Below are positions 27,389 to 58,945 of a stretch of 64,000 bases of DNA, in pieces. Both the position numbers and the translations under genes were made by a program. The notes under the pieces are model-generated. The model searched no databases. It saw only the letters and a list, made by a program, of their open reading frames with translations, and was not told the DNA's origin. Source of the DNA: Fluviicola sp. (GTDB lineage Bacteria > Bacteroidota > Bacteroidia > Flavobacteriales_D > Crocinitomicaceae); contig NVXU02000037.1 in the NCBI GenBank assembly GCA_002734065.2, positions 1 through 64,000 on the forward strand. Direction: 5' to 3'. Every line of letters starts with the position of its first letter. The stretch's first letter is position 1.

Positions 27389-27680
27389 AAATCAATTCTT
27401 TACTTTTATTGATAGAATTAACAAGGTAGGGGTTAGAAAGAGTTTGCTCTTCCAATAAATCTACCTTCCTATTAAAAAGTTTTTGTAGGCTGCTCTTGAA
27501 AGCCGTATAGTTTAAAAAATAATTAGCAGGATTGATTTTATTGAATTTTACAAGTAAATCAACATCACTTTCTTTGGTCATTTCTCCCGTTGCGGCCGAA
27601 CCGAATAAACTGAGTGATTGAACCTTGTATTTTTCACAAAGAGCAATGATTTGTATTCTATGGATATCGATAAATGACAT
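27381..27680 (-). CDS. MntA-like nucleotidyltransferase antitoxin
   Basis: The 99-residue minimal nucleotidyltransferase has the signature GSx10DxD exactly (GSAATGEMTKESDVD). It is the antitoxin of the HepT/MntA module and inactivates HepT by transferring AMP to the tyrosine next to the catalytic His. A TATATTTG box lies four bases before the ATG, suggesting a leaderless transcript that would run through hepT into darA. Confidence 0.9.
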   Translation of the reverse strand: MSFIDIHRIQIIALCEKYKVQSLSLFGSAATGEMTKESDVDLLVKFNKINPANYFLNYTAFKSSLQKLFNRKVDLLEEQTLSNPYLVNSINKSKELIYG

Positions 27681-33532: not shown

Positions 33533-34286
33533 TTTGTAATTTCTTTATATCTATACTTGAAGCAAATAATATACCATTCGCTTTTGATTCTTGAATGTAG
33601 TCTTTTAAAACGGTTGTTGAGATGTCTAAATTATCGTGCAACAATACAATGTCACTCGCTTTTGTTTTGCTAATTAAGCGTTTTCTTAATTTATTTACGT
33701 CTTTGTTTATGGTGTCGTAACTCCTTAGTGACCAGCCGATTGAATGAAGGTTCATTTCTTTCAGTGCTCGTGCAAAATTAGGATTGGTATATCCAATAGG
33801 AGCTCTGAAAATAGGTATTCTTCTGCCTGTTAATTTCGTTAATGTTGCTTGTGATTTTGTCAATTCTTCTATCAGTTTTGCTGTAGAAAATAGGGCCATC
33901 ATGTTATTGTGCGTGTAAGTATGGTCTCCTATAAGGTGTCCTTCAGAAAGAATTCTCGCAATAATTTCAGGATGCTTTTCTGCTTTCTGCCCGATGACAA
34001 AAAAGATGGATTTTGCATTTTCTTCACGTAGAATATCTAAAATTTTGGGTGTGTTTACAGGGTCAGGTCCATCATCGAAAGTGAGTAAAACTTCTTTATT
34101 TTTTAGACGAATTAGTGATGGTAGAAAGTAATTCATTTTTAAAAAAAGAACTCCAAGCGTTAGTGTTACCAGAAAGGTTAGTGTGATAAAAATTAGAACG
34201 GGTAAAAAATAAATGGAGTCCAATAAAAGTACACATGTTAAAGTGATGAGTAGAGCATAAATCAATATGTTAATTCGATGCTTCAT
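33525..34286 (-). CDS. Polysaccharide deacetylase (NodB-like), membrane-anchored
   Basis: A 253-residue protein with two N-terminal helices (about 7-24 and 28-48) and a NodB domain. The catalytic base and metal Asp are D71-D72 in LLTFDDGPDPVNTP, and the metal His pair is H122 and H126 in GDHTYTHNNM. It removes N- or O-acetyl groups from a sugar facing the periplasm. A carbohydrate enzyme inside a pigment operon suggests a sugar-containing carrier or head group; see also the GT2 gene at 28363. It overlaps the CLF-like gene (ATGA). Confidence 0.85.
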   Translation of the reverse strand: MKHRINILIYALLITLTCVLLLDSIYFLPVLIFITLTFLVTLTLGVLFLKMNYFLPSLIRLKNKEVLLTFDDGPDPVNTPKILDILREENAKSIFFVIGQKAEKHPEIIARILSEGHLIGDHTYTHNNMMALFSTAKLIEELTKSQATLTKLTGRRIPIFRAPIGYTNPNFARALKEMNLHSIGWSLRSYDTINKDVNKLRKRLISKTKASDIVLLHDNLDISTTVLKDYIQESKANGILFASSIDIKKLQNG

Positions 34287-38960: not shown

Positions 38961-39373
38961 GCTAACACAATTTTCATTTGGCAATCCAGTAATTTTAATC
39001 CATTTTCAAGGACAGTACCTTGAATTAAATGAATGTTTCCGAAGGTATTCAAAATTTCTACTTCTGTGTTCAATTTTGCACCTAATTTTGGCAAAGAGTG
39101 TACTTTTAACTTCGTTATTGCTCCAATAAAGCCGATTTTAGGTTCTCCATCTTCTTCCAAACTGCCCAAATAACCGAATCCTGCGGCACAAGTTTGCGCA
39201 ATATTCTCGGTTAAGGCAGATTCAGATAGTTCTTTGTCTAAAAAGATGTTAGAATCAATGACCTCGAAGGTAGAATGGAATTCTTTTTCATTGGCAGACA
39301 GCAATTCGTCAATCATAATGAATGGTTCTCTCTGTGGAATGAAATTCTTAATATTTTCTTTATTTGCCAGCAT
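38957..39373 (-). CDS. ApeP-like hotdog dehydratase
   Basis: The 138-residue protein begins IKNFIPQREPFIMIDELLSA, like the opening of FabZ/ApeP dehydratases. It has LTENIAQTCAAGFGYLG with E56 at the catalytic acid position. The GHFxxxxxxPG stretch with the usual His is replaced by SNIFLDKELSESAL, a feature I associate with ApeP-type aryl polyene dehydratases. It probably dehydrates polyene intermediates or serves as partner of another dehydratase. It overlaps both neighbours. Confidence 0.7.
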   Translation of the reverse strand: MLANKENIKNFIPQREPFIMIDELLSANEKEFHSTFEVIDSNIFLDKELSESALTENIAQTCAAGFGYLGSLEEDGEPKIGFIGAITKLKVHSLPKLGAKLNTEVEILNTFGNIHLIQGTVLENGLKLLDCQMKIVLA

Positions 39374-40235
39374 AATAGTTGTAAAAATTGAACCATTGCG
39401 TTGGGTATTTCCTAACCATTGATTCTAAATGAGTAACATATTTTTGTGCAATTTCTTCTGGAGATTTTGTCTCCGTTAGAGGGTCTGTTGCATACAATTC
39501 ATAGTGAAATTTGGATGCTTTCGCTGCATAAACAAAGGTAACAGGTGCTTTAAACTTATGCGCCATGATAAAAGGACCCAGTGGAAACTCTGCCTTTGCA
39601 TCGAGAAAATCGAATTCGATATTTTTGCCAATATCACTCACTCTATCTGCGTGTATCGCAATAAATTCGTTTCTTTTTAAAGCTCTATGCATCAATATTA
39701 GATGCGATAAGTCATCTTTGATGGGAATGATATTGTATTTCTGTCCTCCCGTTTGTGTTTTCAAGAAGTCTTTGATTTTCTCAACTTCTGCATCCAACAT
39801 GACGATATTAATGGTGCTTGTGATTCTTTCTCGGATAAGGTTGCCGGCATTCTCCCAATTTCCAACGTGACCAGAAATGAGGATTCCTCCTTTGTTGTCA
39901 TCGTTCATTTTTCGCAACACTTTTTCATTGTTAAATCGGTGCGTGAATGATTTTCGCTTTGAGGTGTGCATGGCAATTCTGTCGATTAAGGTTTGCCCGA
40001 AGTTGTAGAAGTTTTTAAACGCTAATTTTTTGGCTTCTTTTTTTGTCTTTCCCATTCCTACGGTGTAGAATTGGAGTAGTCCATTGCGTTGCTTTTTTGC
40101 AAATAGAATGAAATAGAAGGAAACAAAGTAGCAGAAGAAATAGGAAACCTTTAAACCAAAAAATCGGATGCAAAAAACGAAGAATTTGTATCCGAGTAAG
40201 GAGCCTTTGGTTTTACCATCCCATTTTTTTTCCAT
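39360..40235 (-). CDS. LpxL/HtrB-like lipid acyltransferase
   Basis: The 291-residue member of the lysophospholipid/lipid A acyltransferase family has one N-terminal hydrophobic region (15-46) and the catalytic Hx4E motif as H123-E128 in ILISGHVGNWENAG. It transfers an acyl chain to a lipid or glycolipid at the inner membrane. Acyltransferases of this type are regular members of aryl polyene clusters. The 3' end overlaps the dehydratase gene by 14 bases. Confidence 0.85.
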   Translation of the reverse strand: MEKKWDGKTKGSLLGYKFFVFCIRFFGLKVSYFFCYFVSFYFILFAKKQRNGLLQFYTVGMGKTKKEAKKLAFKNFYNFGQTLIDRIAMHTSKRKSFTHRFNNEKVLRKMNDDNKGGILISGHVGNWENAGNLIRERITSTINIVMLDAEVEKIKDFLKTQTGGQKYNIIPIKDDLSHLILMHRALKRNEFIAIHADRVSDIGKNIEFDFLDAKAEFPLGPFIMAHKFKAPVTFVYAAKASKFHYELYATDPLTETKSPEEIAQKYVTHLESMVRKYPTQWFNFYNYYAGK

Positions 40236-41738: not shown

Positions 41739-42470
41739 TTATGCGTAAATACCTCCGTTGATATTAATAACTTCTCCTGTGATGTATGCTGCTTTGTCTG
41801 AAGCCAAGAAACTCACCAAATTGGCAACCTCCTCGGGCAAGCCAAAACGATTTGCAGGCACCATTTTTTTTAATTCTTCTTCGTTTAACTCACTGGTCAT
41901 GTCTGAAGCAATAAAACCAGGCGCAACTGCATTCACGGTAATTTTTCTTTTCGCTATTTCTTGAGAAAGTGCTTTCGTTGAGGCAATCATTGCTCCTTTT
42001 GCTGCAGAATAATTAGTCTGACCAGGAACGCCTTTTAATCCTGAAAGAGAAGCAATGTTAATGATTCTCCCAGAACGATTTCTTAGCATTTTTTTAATGA
42101 TTGCTTGGGTGCAATTGTACATCCCTTTCACAGAAACATTCATCACTCTGTCCCAATCATCTTCCGTTACCCAAGGAAATAAATTATCCTTTGTAATTCC
42201 AGCATTGTTGACCAAAACCTCAACATGACTGTCAGGATTGTCATTTTGCCATTTCTCCATTGCTGGAGCTACTACTGAAGAATCTTCGACGTTGAATTGC
42301 ATTAATTCTGCCGTTCCACCGTTTTCTTCAATCATTTTTTTCGTCTCATTGGCCGCATCAACATTGGATGAGAAATTAATGAGAATATGAAGATTCAAAT
42401 CCTTTGCTAATTGCACAGCGATAGCTCTACCAATACCTCTAGATGACCCTGTAACTAATGCACACTTCAT
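41739..42470 (-). CDS. FabG-like 3-oxoacyl-ACP reductase
   Basis: This 243-residue short-chain dehydrogenase has the NADPH-binding TGSSRGIGRA near the start, NNAG, and the catalytic Ser-Tyr-Lys as INIASLSGLKG and YSAAKGAM. It reduces beta-ketoacyl-ACP to the 3-hydroxy form in each polyene cycle. It overlaps the ammonia-lyase stop by four bases (ATGA). Confidence 0.92.
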   Translation of the reverse strand: MKCALVTGSSRGIGRAIAVQLAKDLNLHILINFSSNVDAANETKKMIEENGGTAELMQFNVEDSSVVAPAMEKWQNDNPDSHVEVLVNNAGITKDNLFPWVTEDDWDRVMNVSVKGMYNCTQAIIKKMLRNRSGRIINIASLSGLKGVPGQTNYSAAKGAMIASTKALSQEIAKRKITVNAVAPGFIASDMTSELNEEELKKMVPANRFGLPEEVANLVSFLASDKAAYITGEVININGGIYA

Positions 42471-43996
42471 AATTCGATTAAATTTGCACGTAACAAATCT
42501 GTTACATTTTTAATATTTTCTGATTGCGGTACATCTTCAATGACTGCAGGTGCAACACTCCTAATTAGGTCGTAAATTTTCTTTGTTTTAGTAGATAACC
42601 TTTCTTTTTCTTCTTTTGGTAACAAATCAACTGCTTGACAAACAGCCATCATGTGAATGGCCATTACTTGAAATCCATTATCGATGACACTCTTTGCAAT
42701 GATCGCACTATTTGTTCCCATACTGACAATATCTTGGTTATCGTTATTGTTCGGGATACTGTGTACATACATTGAGTTAGAAAGTGTTTGACTTTCGGCT
42801 GTTGTAGATGTTGCAGTAAATTGCATTCCTTGAATCCCAAAGTTGAATCCTAATTTTTTCATGTTTAAGAATGCTGGAAATTTACCGTTCAACTTAGCAT
42901 TCATTAAGAAATTTAACTGTCGCTCTGCCAACATTGTTAGTCGCGTAATGACAATTTTAATCTTGTCCATTTCCAAAGAAACGTAATCACCATGGAAATT
43001 CCCTCCGTGAAATACATTTTGTTCTTCAACACTTACGATAGGATTGTCATTGGTAGAATTCAATTCATTCTCAATCACCTCTTGCGCGAAATTCAATGTT
43101 TCGAGAACAGGTCCTAAAATTTGCGGTACGCAACGGATAGAATAGTATTCTTGAATCTTCTTTTTGAACTCAGAGCGATTCATTTCGTCGTTGTCTTTGA
43201 ATAATTCTTCTCTTTTTCGAATTAAACCACTGTCAGCTAAAAAAGAACGCATATTTGAGGCGATTTCTTGTTGACCGGGATGCCTTTTGACATTATTGAG
43301 CCCTGAAGAGAAGGAATCATCAAATGCTTCCATCACTTCATTGATGATAGAAGAGGATGCAATGGACCAATTTAACAATCGTTTTGCGTAAATAATATTG
43401 ATAGAACCGATTCCTGTCATGCAAGAAGTTCCATTCATTAATCCAAGCCCATCTCGAAGTTTAACATCAAGAGGTTCCATGTTTAATTCTTTTAAGACAT
43501 CTGCAGTGTCTCTGCGTTCTCCGTTATAGAAAACATGACCTTCTCCGATAAGATTAAGTGCCAAATGAGCTAGTTGAACTAAATCACCACTTGCTCCAAC
43601 GCCACCGTGCATAAAAATTTCGGGAGTTATTCTGTTGTTTAAAAACTGGACTAATTTTTCAATCACTCCCATGCTAATTCCAGAATTGGCTTGTAGAAAG
43701 TTGTTGATTCTTGCAATCAGAACCGCACGTGCATATTCTTCCTCTAAAACATTACCTGTTCCTGTCGAGTGACTGCGAATGAGGTTGTATTGTAGTTGGT
43801 TAAGGTCTTTATCATCAATTTTGAATTGAGCCATTGGTCCAAATCCTGTATTGATGCCATATATGATTTTATCACTGGAGAATTCTTCCAAAAAATGAAA
43901 AGACGCACTGATTTTATTGGTCAATTGCTCATTGACTTTGAACTCCTTAAACTGGAGAGCATATTTCTCAAGATCCGATAAGTTAATTTGATTCAT
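42467..43996 (-). CDS. Tyrosine ammonia-lyase (HAL/PAL family)
   Basis: The 509-residue MIO enzyme starts at 43996 (MNQINLSDLE). The cofactor is formed autocatalytically from Ala135-Ser136-Gly137 in GGVGASGDLVQLAHLAL, and the catalytic Tyr is Y46 (IIYGINTGFG). The selectivity loop reads RSHSTGTG (S75-H76). In flexirubin clusters this family deaminates tyrosine to 4-coumarate, the polyene starter. S-H at this loop also occurs in histidine lyases, so substrate choice rests mainly on cluster context. Confidence 0.88.
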   Translation of the reverse strand: MNQINLSDLEKYALQFKEFKVNEQLTNKISASFHFLEEFSSDKIIYGINTGFGPMAQFKIDDKDLNQLQYNLIRSHSTGTGNVLEEEYARAVLIARINNFLQANSGISMGVIEKLVQFLNNRITPEIFMHGGVGASGDLVQLAHLALNLIGEGHVFYNGERRDTADVLKELNMEPLDVKLRDGLGLMNGTSCMTGIGSINIIYAKRLLNWSIASSSIINEVMEAFDDSFSSGLNNVKRHPGQQEIASNMRSFLADSGLIRKREELFKDNDEMNRSEFKKKIQEYYSIRCVPQILGPVLETLNFAQEVIENELNSTNDNPIVSVEEQNVFHGGNFHGDYVSLEMDKIKIVITRLTMLAERQLNFLMNAKLNGKFPAFLNMKKLGFNFGIQGMQFTATSTTAESQTLSNSMYVHSIPNNNDNQDIVSMGTNSAIIAKSVIDNGFQVMAIHMMAVCQAVDLLPKEEKERLSTKTKKIYDLIRSVAPAVIEDVPQSENIKNVTDLLRANLIEL

Positions 43997-44090
43997 ATTT
44001 GGTTTGTGTCTTATTCTAGTCAATTTTAATTTTGGTCAAGTTTGCGAAAGTACCAAATATTCTTGTTTTTTATAATATTTTCAGACAGCA

Positions 44091-45265: not shown

Positions 45266-46888
45266 TTAATCATTCAATGTAATTTTGAGCATTACATCTT
45301 CTTTTTTCTTCTTGTAGCATTCTACGGCAAATTCACCTTCAGCGGTTTCAATGATTCTCCCCGTATTGAACTGATACAAGGCTACTCCTTTAGCATCTCT
45401 TGTGTCAAGAATAGATACCTTTTCAACCTTACCCGATTCTTTCTCTATTTTGAATCCAGTCAAAAAGCCACCTTTTCCATCTTGATGGGTCTTAGGGTAT
45501 TTGTTGAGTGGTAATTCAATGTTTTTAACATTGTCCAAGAATAGAACATAGTGATAATTTTTTTGAGAAAGCACATAATATCCCATTCCTCCGCGTCCGG
45601 CGCTACCTCTTTGATTTTTTGGTAACTTGACCATCCATAGCAACTCATTCTCTTTGTCAATATGAGTGGCCAAGATTTCTTGATAATAATAAGTATAAGT
45701 TGTTTGACCTGTTTTAGGATTGTGATGCGAAACAACATAGTATCTTTCACCGTACAGTGTAATTGAACCGTCTTCTTCATAAACGATTTCTCTTAGCACC
45801 ATATTTGGCATGGAGTAGTCTTTCTCTCCTGATTTCTTTTCCATTTTACTTTGTGCACGATCAGATTTGTACAATTTCATTACATCTACTGGGATTTCGT
45901 AACTCAACTTATCTATCAAATCTCCTGAGTCATCGAGCTTGTAAATAAAAACTCCATCAGTTCCACTTCTTGCACGATTACCGTAGTAACCAGCAATGAC
46001 AATTCCACCATCTTTACCTTCGTAAAAGTTGATGTTCTTGATAAATTTGTCTTCGAGTTCTATTTTGGTTGAACTAAGATCTTGATCGTCCGCGCTAACT
46101 CTAATTAATTCTAAATCATAGTTTAGTTTCCCTTTGACAATTTTCTTAGCCGTTTCAGTTCTATAAACCTCTGCAAGAATGTATGTATTACCTTTTTCAT
46201 CAATGGTATAACCGACGTTGTTCATTTTTTTCTCGGTATAAGGCATCGTTATTTTCTTGGACCATACTTCTTCAAGATTTTTTCCATAGACGTGCATACC
46301 AATTATGTCTTTACTCTTTGAATCATTTTTCGTTTTTGGCTTCATTCTATACTGGACAATAAACCTTTCTTCCGAGTAAGATTGATCGAAGTTGAATTTC
46401 CCTCCACGAGCGCCAGCAGTTATTCCGAACATTCCTCCAAATCCAGTAATTCCAAAACCGCCGGTTACTTTTCCTTTTACTTTTATTAAAAGCCTTTCTT
46501 TACCTGCCCAATTTGCTTTGTCAAAGTCAATTTCTCTAACAAATAATTGCTCAGTTTCGTTGGCTTTATCCCATCTTGAGAAGAAGAAATAATATTGACC
46601 AGCAAATTCTAAATAAGATTCGGGTGTAAATCCTTCACCCTTTTCTACTGTGTTGTGCTTACTTTCGTTAAGCTTGGCTCCTGAAAATTTTTGGAAATGA
46701 AATTTTCCTCTTCCATATTTTACAGCGAGAATTTCTCCGTCTCTACTAAAATAAGATTTCATACCATCAACAACTCTGTATGGAGTACTGACTGAATAAC
46801 TAAACTCTTTAGATAGTTTAACTTCTTGGGCAGTAGAATTAAAATTGAACAGCGCAATGAATAATGTTGTTAGTAATAAATGTTTCAT
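45266..46888 (-). CDS. Large secreted protein, unknown
   Basis: This 540-residue protein has a signal peptide (MKHLLLTTLFIALFNFNSTAQ), a Gly-rich segment near residues 140-165 (GGFGITGFGGMFGITAGARGG), and a beta-propeller-like body with repeated strands such as GYTIDEKGNTYILAEVY and EDGSITLYGERYYVV. No catalytic motif is seen. It has its own terminator and a likely promoter (TTG-N19-TATTTTGC near 46916-46945), so it is a separate unit inserted between two pigment operons. Confidence 0.7.
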   Translation of the reverse strand: MKHLLLTTLFIALFNFNSTAQEVKLSKEFSYSVSTPYRVVDGMKSYFSRDGEILAVKYGRGKFHFQKFSGAKLNESKHNTVEKGEGFTPESYLEFAGQYYFFFSRWDKANETEQLFVREIDFDKANWAGKERLLIKVKGKVTGGFGITGFGGMFGITAGARGGKFNFDQSYSEERFIVQYRMKPKTKNDSKSKDIIGMHVYGKNLEEVWSKKITMPYTEKKMNNVGYTIDEKGNTYILAEVYRTETAKKIVKGKLNYDLELIRVSADDQDLSSTKIELEDKFIKNINFYEGKDGGIVIAGYYGNRARSGTDGVFIYKLDDSGDLIDKLSYEIPVDVMKLYKSDRAQSKMEKKSGEKDYSMPNMVLREIVYEEDGSITLYGERYYVVSHHNPKTGQTTYTYYYQEILATHIDKENELLWMVKLPKNQRGSAGRGGMGYYVLSQKNYHYVLFLDNVKNIELPLNKYPKTHQDGKGGFLTGFKIEKESGKVEKVSILDTRDAKGVALYQFNTGRIIETAEGEFAVECYKKKKEDVMLKITLND

Positions 46889-46994
46889 TTTGTTTCTTTT
46901 TTAGTTAATGAACCGCAAAATAGCGATTTTTTCTTGTTTTGCAATCATTTTGAGATTACAAAATCTAAGCCACAGATTATTCACTTGTTTTTTC

Positions 46995-47002
46995 TACTTT
47001 TG
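46995..47002 (+). promoter_or_regulatory. -7 box (TACTTTTG) of the fused exporter operon
   Basis: TACTTTTG matches the -7 consensus and places the transcript start near 47008. Translation of the exporter must therefore begin downstream, which argues against the open frame that extends back to 46880. Confidence 0.45.
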
Positions 47003-47050
47003 AAGCAATTATTAATTCTTATCTTATCCTTTATTATTTTCAGTAAACCA

Positions 47051-50000
47051 TTGGGCAAAATTTTCGCAAATATCGTTTCTTTCTTCAACAAAAATCTATT
47101 GTTGTATTTGTCTGTACTCATTAGTGTGATCTTATTTATGTATTACGGAGTTTCGCGACTTCAATTGGACGAAAACATCTATTCCATCTTTCCAAAAGGA
47201 GAAGAATTTAAAAAATTCAACAAAGTTCTGAAAGAAAATAACCTGAACAAACAAATTATTTTTTCTATTGATGCAGGTGTTGATGATGATTTACTTGAAG
47301 AACGCTTGGATTCCGTTGCTCGAATTGTCATCAATAATTCTGATGGGTTAATTAAAGGATTTGAAATTTTCAGAGAAGATCAGCAAGAAACGGTACTGAA
47401 TTATTTTTATACGTCACTTCCAGGTTTACTATCTGAAAAAGACTATCGAAGAATAGAGCAGAAAATCAAAAAAGACTCGATTGAACAGTCAATTGACGTC
47501 GTTTATGATAAGATGACGTCTCCAAATGCATTCTTTATGCGGAAAATTTTCGCAAAAGACCCTCTTGGCTTAGCTTGGGAGAAGTTGCAGTCACTAAAAC
47601 CTCAGGAAGATTCAAACGCAATGCTTGTAGAGGATGGGATTTTATTCTCGGGAAATAAAAAACGAGCACTTTTTACGGCAGTTTTAAACTTTGAACTCGA
47701 AGACAACCGCAAAAATGAACAGTTGAACCTTCGACTCAAAGATTTGAAGGAAGAAATCAATGCCAATACAGATATCGGCTTTGATTATTTCGGAACTTTT
47801 CAAATTTCGTATGAGAATTCTAGACAAGTAAAAGAAGACACGTTTCTCACGATGATTATTAGCATAGTGTTGATTCTCTTGCTTCTCATTTTCTATTACC
47901 GCAGCTTGTTGACACCGATTTATTTCGTTCTCCCCGCCATCTTCTCGGGATTTTGTGGATTGGGGCTTGTCGGCTTTATTCAACCTGAAATTTCAGCAAT
48001 TTCGATTGCAACGTCTGCTATTTTAATGGGAATTGTGCTCGATTATTCTTTTCACTTTTTCACGCATTACAACGATTCAAAAAACCTGATTGCCACGATA
48101 AAATCATTGTCTTTTCCGATGTTGGTGGGTAGTTTTACAACCGTTGCGGCATTCTCTGCGTTGATTTTCACGGACTCTGTTGTTTTGCAGAATTTTGGAC
48201 TAATTGCGCTTTGCACTTTATCTTCTGCGGTATTGTTTACTTTGCTACTACTCCCCACTTTTTTGTTTGCGACAGGCTACAAGCCAAAAGGAGAAAGGGC
48301 TTCAAGGAGTCGGGTGATTATTCCAAAATGGTTTGCCCGTGTGTCAATATGGTTCATCCTTATCCTCTCGGTGATTTTCTTTTACAATGCAAACGACTTC
48401 CAATTTGATGCTGATTTAAACAATCTAAGCTACCACCCAGACGAATTGGCGGAGAAAGAGGAAGTGTTCACAGGAATTAATCCAAGAACGGAAAAGAAAC
48501 TGCATTTGTTTGTTTCTGGAACAACCAAAGAGGAGGCAGAGGCAAAGAATTTTGAACTGTATCAGCAACTTTCTCACTACAAGAAAAAAGAGGGATTGGA
48601 AGAAATTATTTCTGTTGCACCTTATGCAATTCCATCTGAGGTGAAAGAAAAAGGTTTTGAGCGTTGGTTAAGCTTTTGGGAGAAAAATGGACAAGCAACA
48701 ACGAATAAAATAAATGCAAAAGCCGCGGAGTTAGACTTCTCTTCTTCCGCTTTTAGCCCTTTTGAAGCATGGATTAACCAGTCAAAATCGACAATAACCA
48801 AAAAGGAAGAGAAAGAAATTCAAGCGCAATTAGGCTTGTATAAATTGGTTTACTCTTCAGGTGATAATTGGAACATTATAACGAGTGTTGTCGTCAAAAA
48901 AGAACAATTAGCGGACTTCAAAGCGCAATTGGCAACAAATTCTGACGTCTATATTTTTGACATCGCAGAAATGGCAAACGCATTGATGGTGTCTGTGCAA
49001 AACGATTTCAATTACTTACTTATTTTCTCTTCTTTACTCGTTTTCTTTTCGCTACTTGTTATTTATGGGAGAATAGAATTGGCGCTCTTTGCGTTCTTGC
49101 CTATGCTCATCAGTTGGATTTGGATTCTCGGTATTGCAGCACTTTTTGACATCCAATTTAATTTCGTGAATATTATCGTTGCCACCTTCATTTTTGGCTT
49201 GGGGGACGATTTTTCTATCTTCGTAACAGACGGTTTGCTGCAGAAGTATAAAACAAAATCGAATGTATTGAAGTCGTTCAAATCTGCGATTATTCTTTCT
49301 GGAATTACAACCATCATTGGAACCGGTGCACTCTATTTCTCGAAGCATCCTGCCATTCATTCTATCGCAATAATCAGTGTTGTGGGAATTGCTTGTATTT
49401 TGGTAGTAACCTTGGTGGTGCAACCTGCAATTTTTAAGTTATTCATTACCAATAGAACGAATAAAAAACGATCACCGGCTACTTTTTTAGGCTTATTAAT
49501 AAGCATTATATTTTTCATCTATTTTTTCATAGGTAGTATTCTGTTATCTCTATTATTACTCCTTCTTATTCCTTTCCCAATTACAAAAAAGAAAAAACAG
49601 AAGTTTTTGAACTATTTAGTATCAAAATTAGCTGGTTCAGTTATTAATTTTGGTTTTCACGTAAAAAAGAGAATGCTAAATGAAGAGCGATTAGACTTCT
49701 CAAAACCGTCCATTATTGTTGCCAATCATTCTTCATTCTTAGACATTCTTTTAATGATTATGATGAATCCTAAAGTAATCATTATGGTTAAAAAATGGGT
49801 GTATTATTCTCCCGTTTTTGGTCTTTTTATTCGCTACGCAGGATACCCCTATGTTGCAGAAGGCACTGAGTATAATCTTGAATTGATGCGTGAGAAAATC
49901 AATGATGGCTATTCTATTATGGTTTTCCCAGAAGGTACACGAACCACTGATGGAGAAATAAAACGCTTTCACAAAGGAGCATTCTATTTGGCGCAAGAAT

Positions 50001-50893
50001 TAAACATAGACATTCAGCCCATTGTTATTCATGGCGCTTATTATATCAACCCAAAGAATGATTTCATTATAAAATCGGGCACGTTGACCTTGGATATCAT
50101 GGAGAGAATCACTCCAGAAGATGCAATTTATCAACAACGCTTTGGGTTGTTTGCAAAATCAGTACTTACCAAGATGCGTGAGCAACAAAAAGAGACCAAA
50201 TTGCAAATAGAGGATGCAAAATACTTGAGCAATCGTGTGCAATACAATTATTTGTATAAAGGTCCAGCGATGGAATGGTATGTGAGAATAAAATGGAAAT
50301 TTGAGCAAAAAAACTTCGATTTTTATGATTATTTGATAGGCAATAGAAGCAAAATCTATGATGTGGGTTGTGGATTGGGGTATTTGAGCTACTTCTTGCA
50401 TTACCGCAATTCTGAAAGAGAAATAACTGGCGTAGATTACGATGAAGATAAAATCATTTTTGCAAGTAATGGCTACGATAAAACGGAAAATTTACAATTC
50501 TTGGCCAGTGATGCAAGAGATTTTGAAATTAAAAATGCAGATGTGGTTTTTTACAACGATGTCTTGCATTACATGACCTTGGCGCAGCAATTTGAGGTAC
50601 TTAACAAAACAGTGGATAATCTCAACGAAGATGGAATTATTCTCATTCGAGACGGAATTATCAATCTTTCTGACAGGCACGGAACGACACAGAAAACGGA
50701 AAAATTTTCTACCTCTATTTTTGGGTTTAATAAAACTACTGAGCCTTTAAGCTTCTTTTCTTCCGAAGATATTTTTAAATTCGCAAAGGAGCGAAATTTG
50801 ACATGTGAAATGAAGGAGCAATCCAAGAAAACATCCAACGTCCTATTTATTCTCCGAAAAACCAAAAATGAAGGAAACAAATCTGCAATATGA
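47051..50893 (+). CDS. Fused MMPL exporter / lysophospholipid acyltransferase / SAM methyltransferase
   Basis: About 1,280 residues. The start is uncertain: TTG at 47051, just before the first membrane helix (LLLYLSVLISVILFMYYG), is preferred. The open frame extends to 46880, but that part is antisense to another gene's start and upstream of the -7 box. Part 1 is an RND/MMPL transporter: two blocks of five or six helices (TFLTMIISIVLILLLLIFYYRS; FNFVNIIVATFIFGLGDDFSIFVTDG) separated by periplasmic loops. Part 2 is a PlsC domain with Hx4D (VANHSSFLD) and FPEGTR. Part 3 is a methyltransferase (YDVGCGLGYLSYFLHYR). It probably exports and modifies the pigment. Confidence 0.88.
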   Translation: MGKIFANIVSFFNKNLLLYLSVLISVILFMYYGVSRLQLDENIYSIFPKGEEFKKFNKVLKENNLNKQIIFSIDAGVDDDLLEERLDSVARIVINNSDGLIKGFEIFREDQQETVLNYFYTSLPGLLSEKDYRRIEQKIKKDSIEQSIDVVYDKMTSPNAFFMRKIFAKDPLGLAWEKLQSLKPQEDSNAMLVEDGILFSGNKKRALFTAVLNFELEDNRKNEQLNLRLKDLKEEINANTDIGFDYFGTFQISYENSRQVKEDTFLTMIISIVLILLLLIFYYRSLLTPIYFVLPAIFSGFCGLGLVGFIQPEISAISIATSAILMGIVLDYSFHFFTHYNDSKNLIATIKSLSFPMLVGSFTTVAAFSALIFTDSVVLQNFGLIALCTLSSAVLFTLLLLPTFLFATGYKPKGERASRSRVIIPKWFARVSIWFILILSVIFFYNANDFQFDADLNNLSYHPDELAEKEEVFTGINPRTEKKLHLFVSGTTKEEAEAKNFELYQQLSHYKKKEGLEEIISVAPYAIPSEVKEKGFERWLSFWEKNGQATTNKINAKAAELDFSSSAFSPFEAWINQSKSTITKKEEKEIQAQLGLYKLVYSSGDNWNIITSVVVKKEQLADFKAQLATNSDVYIFDIAEMANALMVSVQNDFNYLLIFSSLLVFFSLLVIYGRIELALFAFLPMLISWIWILGIAALFDIQFNFVNIIVATFIFGLGDDFSIFVTDGLLQKYKTKSNVLKSFKSAIILSGITTIIGTGALYFSKHPAIHSIAIISVVGIACILVVTLVVQPAIFKLFITNRTNKKRSPATFLGLLISIIFFIYFFIGSILLSLLLLLLIPFPITKKKKQKFLNYLVSKLAGSVINFGFHVKKRMLNEERLDFSKPSIIVANHSSFLDILLMIMMNPKVIIMVKKWVYYSPVFGLFIRYAGYPYVAEGTEYNLELMREKINDGYSIMVFPEGTRTTDGEIKRFHKGAFYLAQELNIDIQPIVIHGAYYINPKNDFIIKSGTLTLDIMERITPEDAIYQQRFGLFAKSVLTKMREQQKETKLQIEDAKYLSNRVQYNYLYKGPAMEWYVRIKWKFEQKNFDFYDYLIGNRSKIYDVGCGLGYLSYFLHYRNSEREITGVDYDEDKIIFASNGYDKTENLQFLASDARDFEIKNADVVFYNDVLHYMTLAQQFEVLNKTVDNLNEDGIILIRDGIINLSDRHGTTQKTEKFSTSIFGFNKTTEPLSFFSSEDIFKFAKERNLTCEMKEQSKKTSNVLFILRKTKNEGNKSAI

Positions 50894-52397
50894 TTTTATA
50901 GTTGTCGGTAGTGGTATCGGCGGATTGGTTTCTGCCGTTCTATTAGCGATGGAAGGCCGTTCTGTTTTGGTGCTGGAAAAAAATCACCAAGTTGGCGGTT
51001 CTTTACAGGTTTTTAGTCGCGATAAAGTCATTTTTGACACAGGTGTGCATTACATCGGTTCTTTGGACGAAGGTGAAACTTTGCATTCTATTTTCAAATA
51101 CCTGGGTATTCTAAAGGACTTAAAATTGAAACGTCTAGACGACGATTGCTTTGACATGATTCGCCTGGCTGATGGCTCAACCTTTAAGCACGGACAAGGT
51201 TATGACAATTTCAAGAAAGGTTTATTAGAAAAATTTCCAAAAGAAGAACTAGGCATTGATTTATTCTTGGAGAAAATACAAGCTATCTGTAAAGAATTCC
51301 CCTTGTATAATTTAGAAGTCGAGGAAGGATTTTCATACATAGACAAACCCGATTTGATGTCGCAAAGTGCCTTTGAATTTGTAAAAAGCATCACCGATGA
51401 TAAAAAACTGCAATCCGTTTTATTGGGCAATGGTTTACTCTACGCAGGAGAAGTTAAAACAACTCCATTGTACGTTCTTGCATTGATTGTGAACAGTTAT
51501 TTGAAAGGAAGTTACAGGATGGAGAATGGAGGTTCTCAGATTGCGAAATTGCTAACCAAACGACTTCATTCTCTCGGTGGCCGAGTGCTTAAACACCAAG
51601 AGGTTGTGGGCGCAGATTATGAACATGGAAGAATTGTTTCTGTGAGCACGAAAGCTGGAGATAAATTCTTTGCCTCCCAATTTATTTCAAATATGCATCC
51701 CCGACAAACTGTAGAAGTATTTGGCAAAGAGAACTTTAGGCCTGCCTACAGGACCCGGCTAAAGAAGTTAGAGAATACGGTATCCTCCTTTATGTTGTAT
51801 CTTTCTTTTCACGAAAATTCTTTCCCATATTTGAATTATAACATGTATTCTTACACACAAGATGCCGTTTGGGACACAGTGGAGTATGACGAAAATCATT
51901 GGCCACAAGCCTTATTTATTTGTACCTCTGCGGTAAAGAATCAAGGAGAATTTGCAGATTCTATGTCCGTTATGGCGTACATGGATTTCAAAGAGGTTGA
52001 GCAATGGAATTCTACCTTTAATACCGTTGCAGAATCATCCGAAAGGGGAGAGGAGTATGCAAAATTTAAAAGAGAGAAAGAAGAACAAATGATTAATCGA
52101 TTGGAAGAAATTTTCCCGGATATTCGAAAATCAATAAAAGGGATTTATTGTTCTACGCCCTTGACTTATAAAGATTATATAGGAACGGAAGACGGTTCAT
52201 TGTATGGAATAAAGAAGGATTACAACAACATCATGCATTCGAAGATTAACTCGAAGACAAGGGTATTAAATTTGTTCTTAACGGGACAGAATTTGGTTTT
52301 TCACGGTGTTTTAGGGGCAACGATTGGTGCTTTGGTAAATAGTTTTAACTTTATAGATGATCGTTATTTGATTGATAAAATAAACAATTTGAAATGA
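50868..52397 (+). CDS. FAD-dependent oxidoreductase, phytoene desaturase-like
   Basis: The 509-residue flavoprotein opens with the dinucleotide-binding motif VVGSGIGGLVSAVLLAMEGRSVLVLEKNHQVGGSLQ and has FDTGVHYIG and, near the C-terminus, FLTGQNLVFHGVLGATIGAL. These are typical of the CrtI/amine-oxidase group (carotenoid desaturases and isomerases). It may act on the polyene chain or resorcinol side chain. It overlaps the exporter gene by 26 bases and the next gene by four, so all three are coupled. Confidence 0.85.
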   Translation: MKETNLQYDFIVVGSGIGGLVSAVLLAMEGRSVLVLEKNHQVGGSLQVFSRDKVIFDTGVHYIGSLDEGETLHSIFKYLGILKDLKLKRLDDDCFDMIRLADGSTFKHGQGYDNFKKGLLEKFPKEELGIDLFLEKIQAICKEFPLYNLEVEEGFSYIDKPDLMSQSAFEFVKSITDDKKLQSVLLGNGLLYAGEVKTTPLYVLALIVNSYLKGSYRMENGGSQIAKLLTKRLHSLGGRVLKHQEVVGADYEHGRIVSVSTKAGDKFFASQFISNMHPRQTVEVFGKENFRPAYRTRLKKLENTVSSFMLYLSFHENSFPYLNYNMYSYTQDAVWDTVEYDENHWPQALFICTSAVKNQGEFADSMSVMAYMDFKEVEQWNSTFNTVAESSERGEEYAKFKREKEEQMINRLEEIFPDIRKSIKGIYCSTPLTYKDYIGTEDGSLYGIKKDYNNIMHSKINSKTRVLNLFLTGQNLVFHGVLGATIGALVNSFNFIDDRYLIDKINNLK

Positions 52398-54718: not shown

Positions 54719-54801
54719 AACATCAAATACGTAAAGAATTATTCTAAAAAGTAGTATATTGACTAAAATTGATATCTTCGTTAAAGATAATAATAGAAAA
54801 A

Positions 54802-54975
54802 ATGGTAGCTATATTAAAACAAGGAGCAACAAAGGAATACATCCAAAATTTGCTAGATAAGATTTATAAAGAAGTTCGCACAAATGGTGTGGATACAAAA
54901 AAATATTGCGGAAAAATAAACCTAAAAATGGATGCTTTAGACATCCAAAAAGGCATGCGAGATGAGTGGAGATAA
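54802..54975 (+). CDS. Putative VapB-like antitoxin
   Basis: The start at ATG 54802 gives a 57-residue protein (MVAILKQGATKEYIQNLLDKIYKE...DALDIQKGMRDEW). Its small size, position and 14-base overlap with a PIN-domain gene make it the likely antitoxin of that toxin. No clear DNA-binding fold is visible, so assignment is by context. Confidence 0.7.
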   Translation: MVAILKQGATKEYIQNLLDKIYKEVRTNGVDTKKYCGKINLKMDALDIQKGMRDEWR

Positions 54976-55333
54976 GTTATTTTTAGACACGAACATCATT
55001 CTCTACTTACTTAGTGGGGATGAAACATTGGCAACGTTTCTGGATAAAAAGCAGTTGTATATTTCATTGATTACAGAACTTGAACTCTTGGGGTTTGGTG
55101 GTATCACAGAAAAAGAAGAAAACGTAATCAAAGACTTTTTGTCACAATGCAAAGTAATTGCCATAAATGGAAAAGTAAAGGAAGAAACAATTCGTATCAG
55201 AAAAACTTACAAGACAAAACTCCCTGACAGTATTATCATTGCAACAGCACTTTATTTAGACCTACCTTTAATTACTTCAGATATTGATTTTAAAAAAGTA
55301 GATGAACTTTCGCTTATTCATTATATTAAATAG
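54962..55333 (+). CDS. VapC-like PIN-domain ribonuclease toxin
   Basis: A 123-residue PIN domain with all four acidic residues: Asp in FLDTNIIL, Glu in TELELLG, Asp in LPDSIIIATAL and Asp in LITSDIDF. PIN toxins cleave tRNA or rRNA using Mg2+. It is encoded right after its putative antitoxin and ends seven bases before the converging ligase gene. Confidence 0.88.
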   Translation: MSGDKLFLDTNIILYLLSGDETLATFLDKKQLYISLITELELLGFGGITEKEENVIKDFLSQCKVIAINGKVKEETIRIRKTYKTKLPDSIIIATALYLDLPLITSDIDFKKVDELSLIHYIK

Positions 55334-55340
55334 CCTTTTT

Positions 55341-56603
55341 TCACATAAACTTAATCTTCTCCGGTTTCCTCATGTGTTTCTTATACACCAATCCTCTCAA
55401 TTTATTCGCTTCCATGAATTGAAACTGAGGCAAAACTCTTAACTTCTCGCGACATCTATCTTTGATAGTATCCAATTCGGAATGTGTTTTGAATTTATCC
55501 TCTAAAAGAACAATAATTTCATCGTTGCCCAATTCATTTTTCTGAACAAGAACTTTGTAGCAAGAAATTGCTTCGAACTCTTCGAGTGCGTCAAAAATAG
55601 CCTTGGGATACAAAGTTGTTCCCTTGAATTTTATCATTTGATTTTTACGTCCGATGATTGGTCCTAAACGAGGAGTTTGTTTTCCACAAGAACATTCGTC
55701 TCGGTAAATTTTGGCAATATCTCCTGTTTTGTAACGAATTAGTGGTGTTCCCTCAACGCCGAGTGTCGTCACTACGATTTCTCCCGATTCTCCATGCAAA
55801 GCTTCGTTTCCATCCTCTTTGATGACCTCCAAAAATAGTAAGTCGTCGTTTAAGTGACAACCATTTTGCGCGGTGCATTCCGAAAAAGCAGCTCCCATTT
55901 CTGTAGATGCGTAAGTCGAAAAAATTTTGACATTCCAGTTGTCAGTGATTCTCTTGCCAAGAATATTATAGCTTAAATCATCGCTACGAATTGGTTCCCC
56001 TATACAAACAATAGATTGAACACTTGAGTTTTCAAAATCAATGTTGTTCTCTTTTGCGTAGTCAATTAAGGTCACAATAAACGAAGGAACGGCAATTAAA
56101 ACGCTTGGTTCGTAATTGAGAATGGCCTCCCATTGCATTTTGGGTGCTCCAGGTCCCAATCGAATAATTCCTGCGTTGAGTTCTTGCACGCCCAAAAAAT
56201 AGGCGATTCCCGCCATGAATTGTTTGTCGATGGTTGTGAGTAGTTGAAATAAATCATCAGAATTATGCCCCATCATCGAGAGTGAATCCTTTTCATTCTT
56301 AGCTAATCGTTGCAAATCATTTTTGGTCAAAAAAAGTGAAATAGGCGAGCCAGTTGTGCCTGAAGTTGTCACATATTCGGCAATTTTTGTTTTCGGAACA
56401 GCGCAAAACTTTTGATTGTACGCGCTTAAATCTTCTTTGCTCGTAAAGCGTAATTTTTTGTAATCTTCTATGGAGAATGATGCATCAACCGAGTTTAATT
56501 TGTCTTTGTAAAACGGAGAATTCTCAACGGAATAATTAATAATTTCCACCAATGATTTCAATTGTTCTTCAGTGCAAAAAGTAGGATTCATCAGCGTTCT
56601 CAT
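55341..56603 (-). CDS. PaaK-like adenylate-forming CoA/ACP ligase
   Basis: The 420-residue member of the ANL superfamily, phenylacetate-CoA ligase branch, has the P-loop YVTTSGTTGSP, the A5-type FSTYASTEMGAAFSEC, the DLA-like RYKTGDIAKI and a C-terminal lobe. In a flexirubin cluster it is the natural candidate for activating 4-coumarate (or an acyl acid) for loading onto an ACP. Start at 56603 overlaps the C45 gene stop (ATGA), so the two enzymes are made together. Confidence 0.85.
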   Translation of the reverse strand: MRTLMNPTFCTEEQLKSLVEIINYSVENSPFYKDKLNSVDASFSIEDYKKLRFTSKEDLSAYNQKFCAVPKTKIAEYVTTSGTTGSPISLFLTKNDLQRLAKNEKDSLSMMGHNSDDLFQLLTTIDKQFMAGIAYFLGVQELNAGIIRLGPGAPKMQWEAILNYEPSVLIAVPSFIVTLIDYAKENNIDFENSSVQSIVCIGEPIRSDDLSYNILGKRITDNWNVKIFSTYASTEMGAAFSECTAQNGCHLNDDLLFLEVIKEDGNEALHGESGEIVVTTLGVEGTPLIRYKTGDIAKIYRDECSCGKQTPRLGPIIGRKNQMIKFKGTTLYPKAIFDALEEFEAISCYKVLVQKNELGNDEIIVLLEDKFKTHSELDTIKDRCREKLRVLPQFQFMEANKLRGLVYKKHMRKPEKIKFM

Positions 56604-58279
56604 TCTTCACATTCTTTAATTAATTCTTCTAATTCTTTCTCAATAGCCAAAGATGCAACTTTCTTTGTCAATGCAATTTCAAAGTACTTTTTGGCTTGTT
56701 TTTTCTGCCCTTTTTTTAAGTAGTATTTTCCGACAACCTCGTAGGTTACGAAAGATTCACTGTTGGTGTTAATGAATGAATCTACCTGACTATCAGTTAA
56801 TTCCAAACTTTTCCCAAACATTAAAAAATCAGCAATATTATTTTTGCTCTTTTTGAACGCTTTGAATTTTTCGTAGTTTTTTGAGTTGACAAAATCATCT
56901 TCTGGAATACTTTTTGGAGAATGAATGGTCTTCGTTTCAAATATTCTCTGCAAGTCGTAGCCCTTGTATTCTCCCAATTGATAATCATTAGTAGAAGCAT
57001 AAAAAACGACAGCATCTGGAAGAATAACGACACTGTGATGCGCAATTAATTGGTTCACCGCACGAGGATTCCCCATGCCGAGCGTATCTCCATTGATGCC
57101 TTTTTGAGAGCGTAAAATGGTAGTGGCATTTTGCAAAGTCAGGGAATCTTTCATTGCCAGCATGGTCTTTACTTTGGCGTATCGGTAGCGCGAATCACTT
57201 TCCATGATGTTGTTAATGTTTTCCTGGTCCATTAAGAATGTTTGCGATTGATAATGATTGGCGCAGATCAGTTCGTCTGTTCCAGGGTCATAAATCCCCA
57301 TTTTAGTTGGTGATTTCTCAATAAGTACCGCTTTGCCGTCTATTTTAGAGGCAACTAGTATCGTTTCTGAGACAAAAGTTTCTCGTTTTCTTGCAATGGC
57401 AATCGCCTCATCTATGGTCGATGCGTATTGCAAAATTTCTCTTGCGAGTAAAGAAATTGGTGTCTTCGATGAGGTAGGCAAATCTGATTTCGACGCATTA
57501 ATGGTCACGCTTAACCCTTTGACATTCAGTCCAGAAGCGACACCTGTGAAACCTGCCCAAGAATAGGATACAAACGCATGGCCTTTGTCTGGTTTCAGAA
57601 AGAGGATGATTTTTTCTTCTGCAAAATCGTCGCCAACGTAGAAGTCGAAATTGCGACCGATCATTAATTTTCCATCGGAAGATTTGCGTCCTTTCAGTGC
57701 GAAAGAGGTGCAACCGACCATGCTGTAATCATTCAATGCGTGACCGATGTCGTGCGCTGCGTGATAGTTAAGAATTCTTCCGTATTTCGTAGAAATGTAA
57801 TTGTAATCATCGGAGAATGCCTTGGAAATTCCGTAAATTTCTTGTTGATTCTCTAGTTGAATATTCTCCGGCAAGTCTTTGTTGAAGAATCCTATCATCA
57901 ATTGCAAAACTCTTTGCCAACCTTTACTCGGAACCATTTTGTCAATCTGTCCAACGAATATTTTTTCTTGTTTTTGAACGAGTTCTTTTGCCAATTCTCC
58001 GTAAATCAATCCTCTTTCGTAGGGCGCTCCTTCTATGTACATCTCCCAGATACCTTGTTCATTCTTTTTGAGCCAATTATCGCCCAAGACGTAATGATTT
58101 TCGCCTACTTTCTCTCGTTGAGCAATAGAAATATCCGAAACTTCTGGCGGATTGATTTTAGAAACGAGTAATACATATAGTATGAATGCAAAAAGCAGTC
58201 CGAAAATTAATTCGGTCATAATTAACGACCCTTTAAGGATAAAAAGTCCAGTTTTTTTAAATGCTTTTGAGATGCTCAT
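56600..58279 (-). CDS. C45-type autoproteolytic acyltransferase/hydrolase
   Basis: The 559-residue Ntn-hydrolase-type enzyme has an N-terminal membrane helix (17-40) and the putative nucleophile C190 in SMVGCTSFALKG, which would be exposed by self-cleavage. It is followed by LMIGRNFDF. The C-terminal part (470 on) has a TPR-like helix pair. Family members are acyl-coenzyme A:6-aminopenicillanate acyltransferase-like. Encoded upstream of and overlapping the PaaK-like ligase, it may use the activated acid as donor, for example to form the flexirubin ester at the periplasmic face. This is an inference. Confidence 0.8.
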   Translation of the reverse strand: MSISKAFKKTGLFILKGSLIMTELIFGLLFAFILYVLLVSKINPPEVSDISIAQREKVGENHYVLGDNWLKKNEQGIWEMYIEGAPYERGLIYGELAKELVQKQEKIFVGQIDKMVPSKGWQRVLQLMIGFFNKDLPENIQLENQQEIYGISKAFSDDYNYISTKYGRILNYHAAHDIGHALNDYSMVGCTSFALKGRKSSDGKLMIGRNFDFYVGDDFAEEKIILFLKPDKGHAFVSYSWAGFTGVASGLNVKGLSVTINASKSDLPTSSKTPISLLAREILQYASTIDEAIAIARKRETFVSETILVASKIDGKAVLIEKSPTKMGIYDPGTDELICANHYQSQTFLMDQENINNIMESDSRYRYAKVKTMLAMKDSLTLQNATTILRSQKGINGDTLGMGNPRAVNQLIAHHSVVILPDAVVFYASTNDYQLGEYKGYDLQRIFETKTIHSPKSIPEDDFVNSKNYEKFKAFKKSKNNIADFLMFGKSLELTDSQVDSFINTNSESFVTYEVVGKYYLKKGQKKQAKKYFEIALTKKVASLAIEKELEELIKECEE

Positions 58280-58362: not shown

Positions 58363-58381
58363 GTATTCTTTAACAATCGTT

Positions 58382-58945
58382 TTGCATTCATACAAGAAAA
58401 TACACGAATTTTATTCAGAGAACTCTGATTCTAAGGTTCTTTTGGTGGAAGACTTGACCGAAATGGAATTAAAATCAGGGTCAAAGCAAGAATATCAACG
58501 AGCTTTTGTAAAACATTGCTTGAGTGAGTATTTAGGTGAAGAAATTACGGTTTTTCACAAAGAATCTGGCGCACCTTTTATAACGCAACCTCGGAGGTTG
58601 CAGATTTCTATTTCTCATTCTAAAAACCTATTTTCAATACAAATATCTAAAAACCAACTAGTTGGAGTCGATGTTCAGGGTTTTAAAAAAGACCTCATGA
58701 AGAGCAAAGAATATTTTGCTAATGAAAAAGAGTTAGGGGATATCGAATTAACTGAATTAAATTTGCATTTAATTTGGTCTGCAAAAGAGGCAATTTATAA
58801 GTTGCTAGAAGGGGATATCGACCAATACAAAGAAGGAATTACGGTTAAGAAAATTTCCGACAAAGAAATATGGGTTGAAGTAAATGCTAAGACTTACAAG
58901 TGTGGTTATTTAGCAACGAATGAATACGTTTTGGTTTACAGTTAA
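58382..58945 (+). CDS. 4'-Phosphopantetheinyl transferase (Sfp-type)
   Basis: The 187-residue protein starts with TTG. It transfers phosphopantetheine from CoA to the serine of ACPs. Mg/CoA-binding residues are D97 in LVGVDVQ and W132-S-A-K135-E136-A in WSAKEAIYK; the SISHS motif is at residues 76-80. It probably activates the three ACPs of this cluster. The loop between GAPFI and SISHS is encoded by a perfect palindrome (58585-58601), which looks like an inserted repeat. Its end overlaps the converging STAS-like gene by four bases. Confidence 0.9.
   Translation: MHSYKKIHEFYSENSDSKVLLVEDLTEMELKSGSKQEYQRAFVKHCLSEYLGEEITVFHKESGAPFITQPRRLQISISHSKNLFSIQISKNQLVGVDVQGFKKDLMKSKEYFANEKELGDIELTELNLHLIWSAKEAIYKLLEGDIDQYKEGITVKKISDKEIWVEVNAKTYKCGYLATNEYVLVYS
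58585..58601. repeat. GCAACCTC palindrome inside the phosphopantetheinyl transferase gene
   Basis: GCAACCTC-G-GAGGTTGC is a perfect 8-bp inverted repeat around one base, encoding residues of TQPRRLQ. The same core, with one mismatch, is intergenic at 10814-10830. Its in-frame position between conserved motifs suggests a palindromic element that inserted into a coding region without breaking it. Confidence 0.7.

Follow-up and report, generated by a model that had tools for sequence, protein, structure and literature searches.

A BtrH-like protein as candidate ester synthase of the flexirubin cluster of Fluviicola sp., and a putative envelope role for the C45 proenzyme encoded beside FlxY

Flexirubin-type pigments, a standard taxonomic marker of Bacteroidota, are esters of an aryl polyene acid and a dialkylresorcinol (DAR), and a literature search in one collection returned no enzyme demonstrated to join these two halves. 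Here, we analyze a stretch of 64,000 nucleotides from Fluviicola sp. (contig NVXU02000037.1, positions 1 to 64,000; hereafter the window), which holds a large flexirubin cluster that also encodes ketosynthases, a ketoreductase, and dehydratase-like genes. Three of its products bear on the formation of the ester: DarH, a BtrH-like acyltransferase; a membrane-anchored proenzyme of the C45 type, one of the N-terminal nucleophile (Ntn) enzymes; and the ligase FlxY. According to the explanation favored here, to which a probability of roughly 60% is given as a whole, FlxY would start the polyene, DarH would make the ester, and C45 would act as an enzyme of the cell envelope.

In Chitinophaga pinensis, heterologous expression of darA and darB has been shown to yield DAR (PMC3992019), and the DAR proteins of Azoarcus also made DAR in Escherichia coli (PMC3949708). 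Since darA and darB suffice for DAR, DarH would act after this compound, and the formation of DAR probably does not require it. Purified FlxY of C. pinensis (Cpin_1877) forms 4-coumaroyl-coenzyme A (CoA) with a kcat/KM of 52977 M-1 s-1, prefers 4-coumarate 121-fold over cinnamate, and took four further similar acids, but not other carboxylic acids, according to the same report (PMC3992019). The activity of FlxA in C. pinensis has, like that of FlxY, been shown by others. For the joining of polyene and DAR, a "ligase-like enzyme (FlxW)" was proposed in 2014 (PMC3992019).

Arcuflavin, from Azoarcus sp. BH72, is likewise an aryl polyene joined to DAR: mass spectrometry fragments show both parts, an ester linkage has been proposed, and free DAR was undetected (PMC3949708). 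Its dar genes stand with a BtrH-like gene (darE) and an ATP-binding cassette (ABC) transporter; it differs in starting from 3-hydroxybenzoate, and no C45 protein is named among the 35 genes of the published table (PMC3949708). The aryl polyene cluster of E. coli (ApeD, ApeJ, ApeL, ApeM, and ApeN) also encodes a LolA-like protein, an exporter of the resistance-nodulation-division (RND) type, and acyltransferases, and its polyene lipid, proposed to be carried by ApeM, ApeL, and ApeN, would reach the outer membrane; unlike the window, it shows no DAR genes and no C45 in its published gene table (PMC8253772). In Flavobacterium johnsoniae, LolA2 and LolB2 lie within the flexirubin locus (PMC11885536).

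The closest relatives of DarH are the cysteine-protease-fold enzymes BtrH, CcbD, CtaG, and AziU3. CtaG is an enzyme that uses a carrier protein. BtrH is an acyl carrier protein (ACP):aminoglycoside acyltransferase (PMC10318531), and CcbD transfers a carrier-protein-bound acyl group first to its own cysteine and then to an amine, in a ping-pong mechanism relying on a Cys-His-Glu triad (PMC12945683). The genes of the window that enter this comparison are the following:

21464..22747 and 22744..23487, minus strand: permease and ATPase of the dar ABC transporter (Pfam ABC2_membrane_3, ABC_tran)
23487..24506, minus strand: DarH, BtrH-like acyltransferase (NCBIfam NF053550, 453.2 bits, cut-off 300)
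24503..24898, minus strand: DarG, conserved small gene accompanying DarH (NF053545, 189.8 bits, cut-off 170)
24900..26039, minus strand: DarB, DAR ketosynthase (NF053539, 617.9 bits, cut-off 550)
26130..27110, minus strand: DarA by position (homologue in 67 of 80 DarH loci)
55341..56603, minus strand: FlxY, PaaK-like AMP-forming ligase (420 residues, ATG start; NCBIfam NF053551, 545.3 bits, cut-off 520)
56600..56603, minus strand: ATGA overlap, comprising the stop codon of C45 and the start codon of FlxY
56600..58279, minus strand: C45 Ntn proenzyme, membrane anchored, with a C-terminal part resembling tetratricopeptide repeats (TPR) (559 residues, ATG start)

The BtrH-like gene at 23487, which a first-pass annotation had placed in the dar operon, indeed adjoins DarG, DarB, and the ABC transporter. 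The open reading frame (ORF) at 26130..27110, which we take to be DarA from its position, gave no NCBIfam match at 1e-8 and no Pfam match at 1e-5.

DarH scores above its NCBIfam cut-off and carries both Pfam domains of its relatives, BtrH_N and DUF4872. Cys14, His128, and Asp144 are invariant in 8 of 8 and in 30 of 30 aligned proteins, and the motifs AHCE and NAHN occur in 53 of 53 and 52 of 53 ORFs, respectively (a count made on 53 ORFs, with 27 of the 80 loci left out). A sequence search of the PDB with DarH returned three matches only (E 0.067-0.26), all of the sc-apCC-4 series, by name designed coiled coils. The predicted structure (predicted local distance difference test, pLDDT, 90.6) matches CtaG (Z 24.4, 295 residues), chain D of AziU2-U3 (Z 23.3), which is AziU3 by its length, and CcbD (Z 21.5), with 295-304 of the 339 residues aligned and the fold shared nearly over the full length. 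The order and spacing of Cys, His, and Asp resemble those of CtaG, as compared through the PDB titles of CtaG variants, which give C11, H128, and D144. According to the mechanism proposed here, Cys14 of DarH would accept the completed polyenoyl chain from an ACP in the cytoplasm, forming a thioester, and His128 and Asp144 would aid the attack of the DAR phenol on this thioester to give the flexirubin ester, which may be exported by the ABC transporter encoded in the dar operon. The product would thus differ from those of the described relatives in being a polyene phenol ester. Overall, we consider it fairly likely that DarH is the flexirubin ester synthase.

The relatives of DarH were taken as the best 80 of 569, all Bacteroidota by record title. 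Among these, the flanks hold DarG in 79 of 80 loci, DarB in 76, and DarA, sought in the fetched stretches, in 67. The DarG of the window, a partner in nearly all these loci, has no Pfam match, and the search for a known fold gave one marginal PDB profile match, to 4mud_A, a phenylacetate-degradation-related protein (E 0.013).

The identity of the C45 protein, as first annotated, is well founded, with 219.2 bits for NCBIfam C45_proenzyme (NF040521, cut-off 85) and 69.4 for Pfam AAT (cut-off 23.2). The numbering of its nucleophile is also right, since Gly189 and Cys190, the predicted cleavage and nucleophile site, are invariant in the 26 aligned homologues, and the single membrane anchor was found as one N-terminal hydrophobic segment. 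Profile matches of the catalytic domain to the PDB at E <= 1 comprise only NAAA (6dy3_B, E 9.2e-4), the match to its beta subunit running from about the C45 nucleophile, and, weakly, acid ceramidase (5u7z_B, E 0.12; 6mhm_B, E 0.15; 5u81_A, E 0.51); TPR proteins match the C-terminus. In a Foldseek comparison, the C45 model, which is weak (pLDDT 65.6), has the Ntn fold and matches IPNAT best (2x1c, E 1.5e-10), then NAAA (2.4e-9), then acid ceramidase. C45 thus shares with these cysteine-nucleophile Ntn enzymes the Gly-Cys site, the NAAA profile match, and, on the weak model, the fold, but differs from them in its membrane or lipid anchor, its TPR-like part, and its link to a polyene export module.

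All 41 distinct C45 proteins compared show an anchoring feature at the N-terminus, in 23 of them a transmembrane segment that in each case follows net positive charge and in 18 a lipobox; seven second copies of counted genes and one protein with an internal stop (L013) were left out of this set. The latter, from genome G174, contains one in-frame TGA, and the C45 of G329 (G329:C20:5316-6942) matches as two separate pieces. With either feature, catalysis would take place beyond the cytoplasmic membrane, where thioesters of CoA or ACP are not expected, and the active site is therefore probably extracytoplasmic. From these sequence features, we lean slightly towards C45 being an acyl enzyme of envelope lipids, which probably hydrolyzes or transfers acyl groups of a polyene lipid after its export. 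In the mechanism proposed, it would cleave itself between Gly189 and Cys190 and act outside the cytoplasm on a polyene-bearing lipid delivered by a module of exporter, LolA, glycosyltransferase, and deacetylase. A study of marine Flavobacteriia placed this acyltransferase among the genes for synthesis and transport of the polyene and listed darA and darB separately (PMC5932025). The genes of this module and others of the polyene part of the cluster are the following:

28363..29511, plus strand: GT2 glycosyltransferase, envelope module (Pfam Glycos_transf_2, 73.6 bits)
32909..33532, minus strand: LolA-like periplasmic carrier (Pfam LolA, 65.8 bits)
33525..34286, minus strand: polysaccharide deacetylase, envelope module (Pfam Polysacc_deac_1, 116 bits)
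39360..40235, minus strand: lipid A-type acyltransferase, envelope module (Pfam Lip_A_acyltrans, 82.6 bits)
42467..44023, minus strand: aromatic amino acid lyase, FlxA or tyrosine ammonia-lyase as judged from cluster position and published work (Pfam Lyase_aromatic, 536.6 bits)
46880..50893, plus strand: MMPL/RND-type exporter fused to an acyltransferase and a methyltransferase (Pfam MMPL, Acyltransferase, Methyltransf)
50868..52397, plus strand: CrtI/CrtD-like oxidoreductase dependent on flavin adenine dinucleotide (FAD), often adjoining C45 in relatives
58382..58945, plus strand: phosphopantetheinyl-transferase-like gene, divergent from C45 (ACPS, 24.8 bits, just below the Pfam cut-off of 25)

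A related explanation, compatible with DarH as the ester synthase, makes C45 a lipid amidase instead of an enzyme of acyl transfer, trimming the polyene lipid or the head group of that lipid in the manner of NAAA and acid ceramidase. These two are the sole PDB sequence matches of its catalytic domain, and C45 tracks the exporter across genomes (see below), but the best structural match, IPNAT, is an acyltransferase, and the fold does not separate a hydrolase from a transferase, so we regard this assignment as possible but less likely than not.

FlxY of the window lies above the curated cut-off of its equivalog family and has as PDB relative the phenylacetate-CoA ligase 4r1l (E 2.7e-43). It belongs to the same pathway as the C. 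pinensis FlxY, the enzyme whose activity is known, and is predicted by analogy to be a 4-coumarate-CoA ligase catalyzing the first activation step of the polyene. Since the C. pinensis enzyme forms 4-coumaroyl-CoA, FlxY would stand at the start of the pathway, in the cytoplasm, and would have no part in the ester.

The distribution of these genes was surveyed in tool-drawn samples of 296 genomes from the phylum and 396 from the class, and in 50 genomes with DarH, picked by hand from the 80 above, with isolates and longer loci first. Many of the genomes are drafts or metagenome-assembled genomes (MAGs), which makes single absences weak, those in G118, a single contig, and G324, a single chromosome record, being stronger; the genome sets partly overlap (G310/G495 and G313/G589 have the same C45 coordinates), and their counts were not summed. 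In the phylum sample, FlxY is above its cut-off in 25 of 296 genomes. A close C45 (E below 1e-128) accompanies it in 24, and in the remaining one, G099, the match is weak (1.7e-5). Eleven further genomes have weak C45 matches (E 3.3e-13 to 6.6e-4), taken as paralogues. The MMPL exporter accompanies C45 in all 24, and is missing from G099, where the acyltransferase part alone matches. DarH is above its cut-off in 23 of the 25, the others being G238 and G118, in neither of which a DAR operon was seen, and DarB in 22 (G017 and G238 score 518.7 and 498.9 bits, below the cut-off, and G118 shows background). The DarB of G238 stands alone within 19 kb. None of 14 control genomes has DarH above the cut-off.

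Among the 50 genomes with DarH, 37 have a close C45 and 13 do not, with a weak match (3.6e-6) in one of the latter. FlxY is above its cut-off in 48; in G321 it is divided between two contigs, and in G334 it was not found. The exporter is present in 36, being absent from the 13 genomes without C45 and from G315, a MAG with C45. Thus, 36 genomes have both C45 and the exporter, one has C45 only, none has the exporter only, and 13 have neither (Fisher 3.9e-11, a test that counts related genomes as independent). Of the 13 genomes devoid of a close C45, 12 have FlxY above its cut-off. Among the 13 are four Mucilaginibacter isolates and a chromosome record; another Mucilaginibacter, G327, has both C45 and the exporter, so the absence of C45 is not the effect of a single lineage alone. 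Strains that combine DAR genes, DarH, and FlxY with the absence of C45 and the exporter include Mucilaginibacter straminoryzae, M. agri, M. myungsuensis, and Chitinophagaceae bacterium DXS; one narrow literature search returned no paper on flexirubin for the Mucilaginibacter species without C45. C45 is therefore not found wherever FlxY and DAR genes occur, as 12 genomes with DarH and FlxY, and G099, lack a close copy.

The chromosome record, Chitinophagaceae bacterium DXS (G324), encodes DarA, DarB, DarG, DarH, the ABC transporter, the polyene genes, the lyase, and FlxY within ~27 kb, and the 60 kb fetched around them gave, at E 1e-4, no match to the C45, exporter, LolA, deacetylase, GT2, lipid A-type acyltransferase, or FAD enzyme of the window. 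Four ORFs there that match nothing in the cluster of the window were assigned by Pfam to the glycoside hydrolases, the IS200-like transposases, ACPS, and the alpha/beta hydrolases. The transposase gene stands in the compact cluster beside what seem by eye to be repeats (L143 14895..17000).

C45 also occurs where DAR is presumably not made. It was found in 70 of the 396 class genomes (with at most 3 first-look candidates scored), and among the 57 that lie outside the phylum sample, 52 have DarH and five do not. Seven genomes in all have C45 without DarH, and five of them, from five families, lack DarB at E 1e-20 (G118, G516, G531, G597, and G676), so that there is presumably no resorcinol to esterify. 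Polyene genes including the lyase are present in the fetched stretches of G118, G238, G531, and G597, and FlxY, the exporter, and C45, but not the lyase, were seen in those of G516 and G676. In G118 (L033 14075..17375), which has no DAR genes, the exporter is of 812 residues and lacks the fused acyltransferase and methyltransferase, and a 291-residue ORF separates it from C45.

These distributions bear most directly on the possibility that C45, perhaps the FlxW of the literature, is itself the ester synthase, taking the polyene from an exported lipid and passing it, in the outer membrane or periplasm, to DAR that the dar ABC transporter has brought out. Its best structural match is an acyltransferase and it accompanies DarH in 37 of 50 genomes, but its retention in five genomes without DarB, its absence from 13 genomes with DarH (12 with FlxY, one a chromosome with a contiguous DAR-polyene cluster), and the lack of a named C45 in the Azoarcus clusters make this role unlikely. 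The identification with FlxW is a separate matter. In G253 and G531, the genes follow the order GT2, exporter, FAD enzyme, C45, AcpS, FlxY, and GT2 is preceded by a dehydratase-like gene in G238 and G118; in the 2014 nomenclature, FlxS is a dehydratase, the glycosyltransferase and exporter fall within FlxP-U, and FlxV is a possible reductase (PMC3992019). Since the order in these relatives fits that naming, FlxW falls on C45, and we regard this correspondence as likely, our confidence being lowered because the full order was pieced together from different genomes and other relatives are ordered otherwise; FlxW was, moreover, called ligase-like. If FlxW is C45, the idea that C45 joins the two halves is already in print as a suggestion.

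The ester could also be made by a lipid-type acyltransferase, either the one that forms part of the exporter fusion or the lipid A-type enzyme at 39360..40235. Both are encoded in the cluster, and the 812-residue exporter of G118, which matches up to residue 862 and lacks the fused acyltransferase and methyltransferase, hinted at the former; the fused domain was nevertheless rejected as the ester enzyme because four other genomes without DAR (G516, G531, G597, and G676) retain it. The exporter is, in addition, absent from 14 of the 50 genomes with DarH, and the G324 cluster matches neither candidate, which leaves this alternative improbable.

The first-pass annotation had named C45 together with the ligase, the BtrH-like protein, or both acting in sequence as the source of the ester. 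The part on the BtrH-like protein is supported, and by its distribution, active-site conservation, and fold it is the likelier ester enzyme, whereas the pairing of C45 with the ligase is not supported. The two ORFs do overlap by ATGA at 56600-56603, and C45 and FlxY are adjacent in several relatives (e.g., L031, L044, L045, L132-L136, and the Dyadobacter loci), a layout that exceeds chance. A coupled reaction, in which FlxY would make the CoA ester of the polyene acid and C45 would transfer it to DAR, is nonetheless very improbable and was rejected on distribution and topology, given that C45 persists without DarB and is missing from genomes with DarH and FlxY, that the two genes lie apart in G269, G017, and G012, that the probably extracytoplasmic C45 would have cytoplasmic CoA esters out of reach, and that the C. 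pinensis FlxY, a 4-coumarate-CoA ligase in vitro that accepted 4-coumarate, cinnamate, and four similar acids, comes close to the ligase activating only coumarate that the annotation had itself set against the pairing (PMC3992019). Because of the overlap, C45 and FlxY are probably co-transcribed, but as neighbors and not as a reaction pair. A scan of 55200-58500 gave 11 promoter-like sites, against 9.2 in shuffled sequence, and four terminator-like sites, against 2.4, counts to which no weight was given. As for action in sequence, C45 could move the polyene in the envelope after DarH or by a parallel route. In L044 (3882..4256) and L134 (11373..11750), an AcpS-type phosphopantetheinyl transferase stands between C45 and FlxY; in the window, a phosphopantetheinyl-transferase-like gene is divergent next to C45.

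Several points weigh against the favored explanation. CcbD forms an amide and BtrH acylates an aminoglycoside, so a phenol ester is an extrapolation from both, and the roles of DarH and C45 are each drawn from genes and models. C45 is present in 37 of the 50 genomes with DarH, and could thus act on the ester in the majority of flexirubin-forming strains; DAR might be its acceptor wherever it is made, with another compound taking this place in genomes without DAR. One genome, G467, has DarA and DarB with no DarH found, although the contig in question is of 5.5 kb and the genome is in 360 contigs, and an alpha/beta hydrolase gene lies near flxY in G324. The comparison with Azoarcus is with the published table only, in which a few of the 35 genes are without a domain note (PMC3949708). 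The C45 counts of the phylum sample come from at most 4 first-look candidates per genome, and those of the exporter in the 50 genomes from at most 12 in many of them. For C45, the model is weak, as given above, and the topology is read from hydropathy and lipobox pattern, with 16 lipobox forms by a stricter pattern and 18 by a looser one; these forms are confined to families f5 and f6, and may represent one evolutionary change. Finally, FlxY is above its cut-off in one of the 14 control genomes, Bacteroides ihuae, which has no DarH match, so FlxY alone is no proof of flexirubin. In that genome, a DarB-family match passes E 1e-20 and lies below the cut-off.

Beyond the biosynthetic genes, the pigment cluster holds two pairs of small ORFs. 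Beside DarA, on the minus strand, 27041..27388 and 27381..27680 encode HepT-like and MntA-like (nucleotidyltransferase) proteins, which by family would form a type VII toxin-antitoxin pair, although the MntA-like ORF scores under the NCBIfam cut-off. On the plus strand, a PIN-domain ORF (54962..55333) adjoins flxY and is overlapped at its start by a 68-residue ORF, together forming a possible toxin-antitoxin pair (54769..55333). The table of the Azoarcus dar cluster likewise lists genes for PilT-domain and prevent-host-death proteins (PMC3949708).

The comparison made here ranks the candidates for the ester as DarH, then C45, then the lipid-type acyltransferases. A bolder version, which we consider doubtful at present, would make DarH the first member of the BtrH/CcbD/CtaG fold group to acylate a phenol oxygen, closing the ester step of both flexirubins and arcuflavin, and C45 an extracytoplasmic transacylase or amidase of a polyene-lipid export module of Bacteroidota that could occur with or without DAR. 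Flexirubin loci would thus comprise two separable pathways that share one polyene synthase, a cytoplasmic route to the ester and a lipid route in the envelope; we know of no earlier phenol-O-acylating member of this group. The genomes that have one of these genes without the other make the question of the flexirubin ester directly testable.

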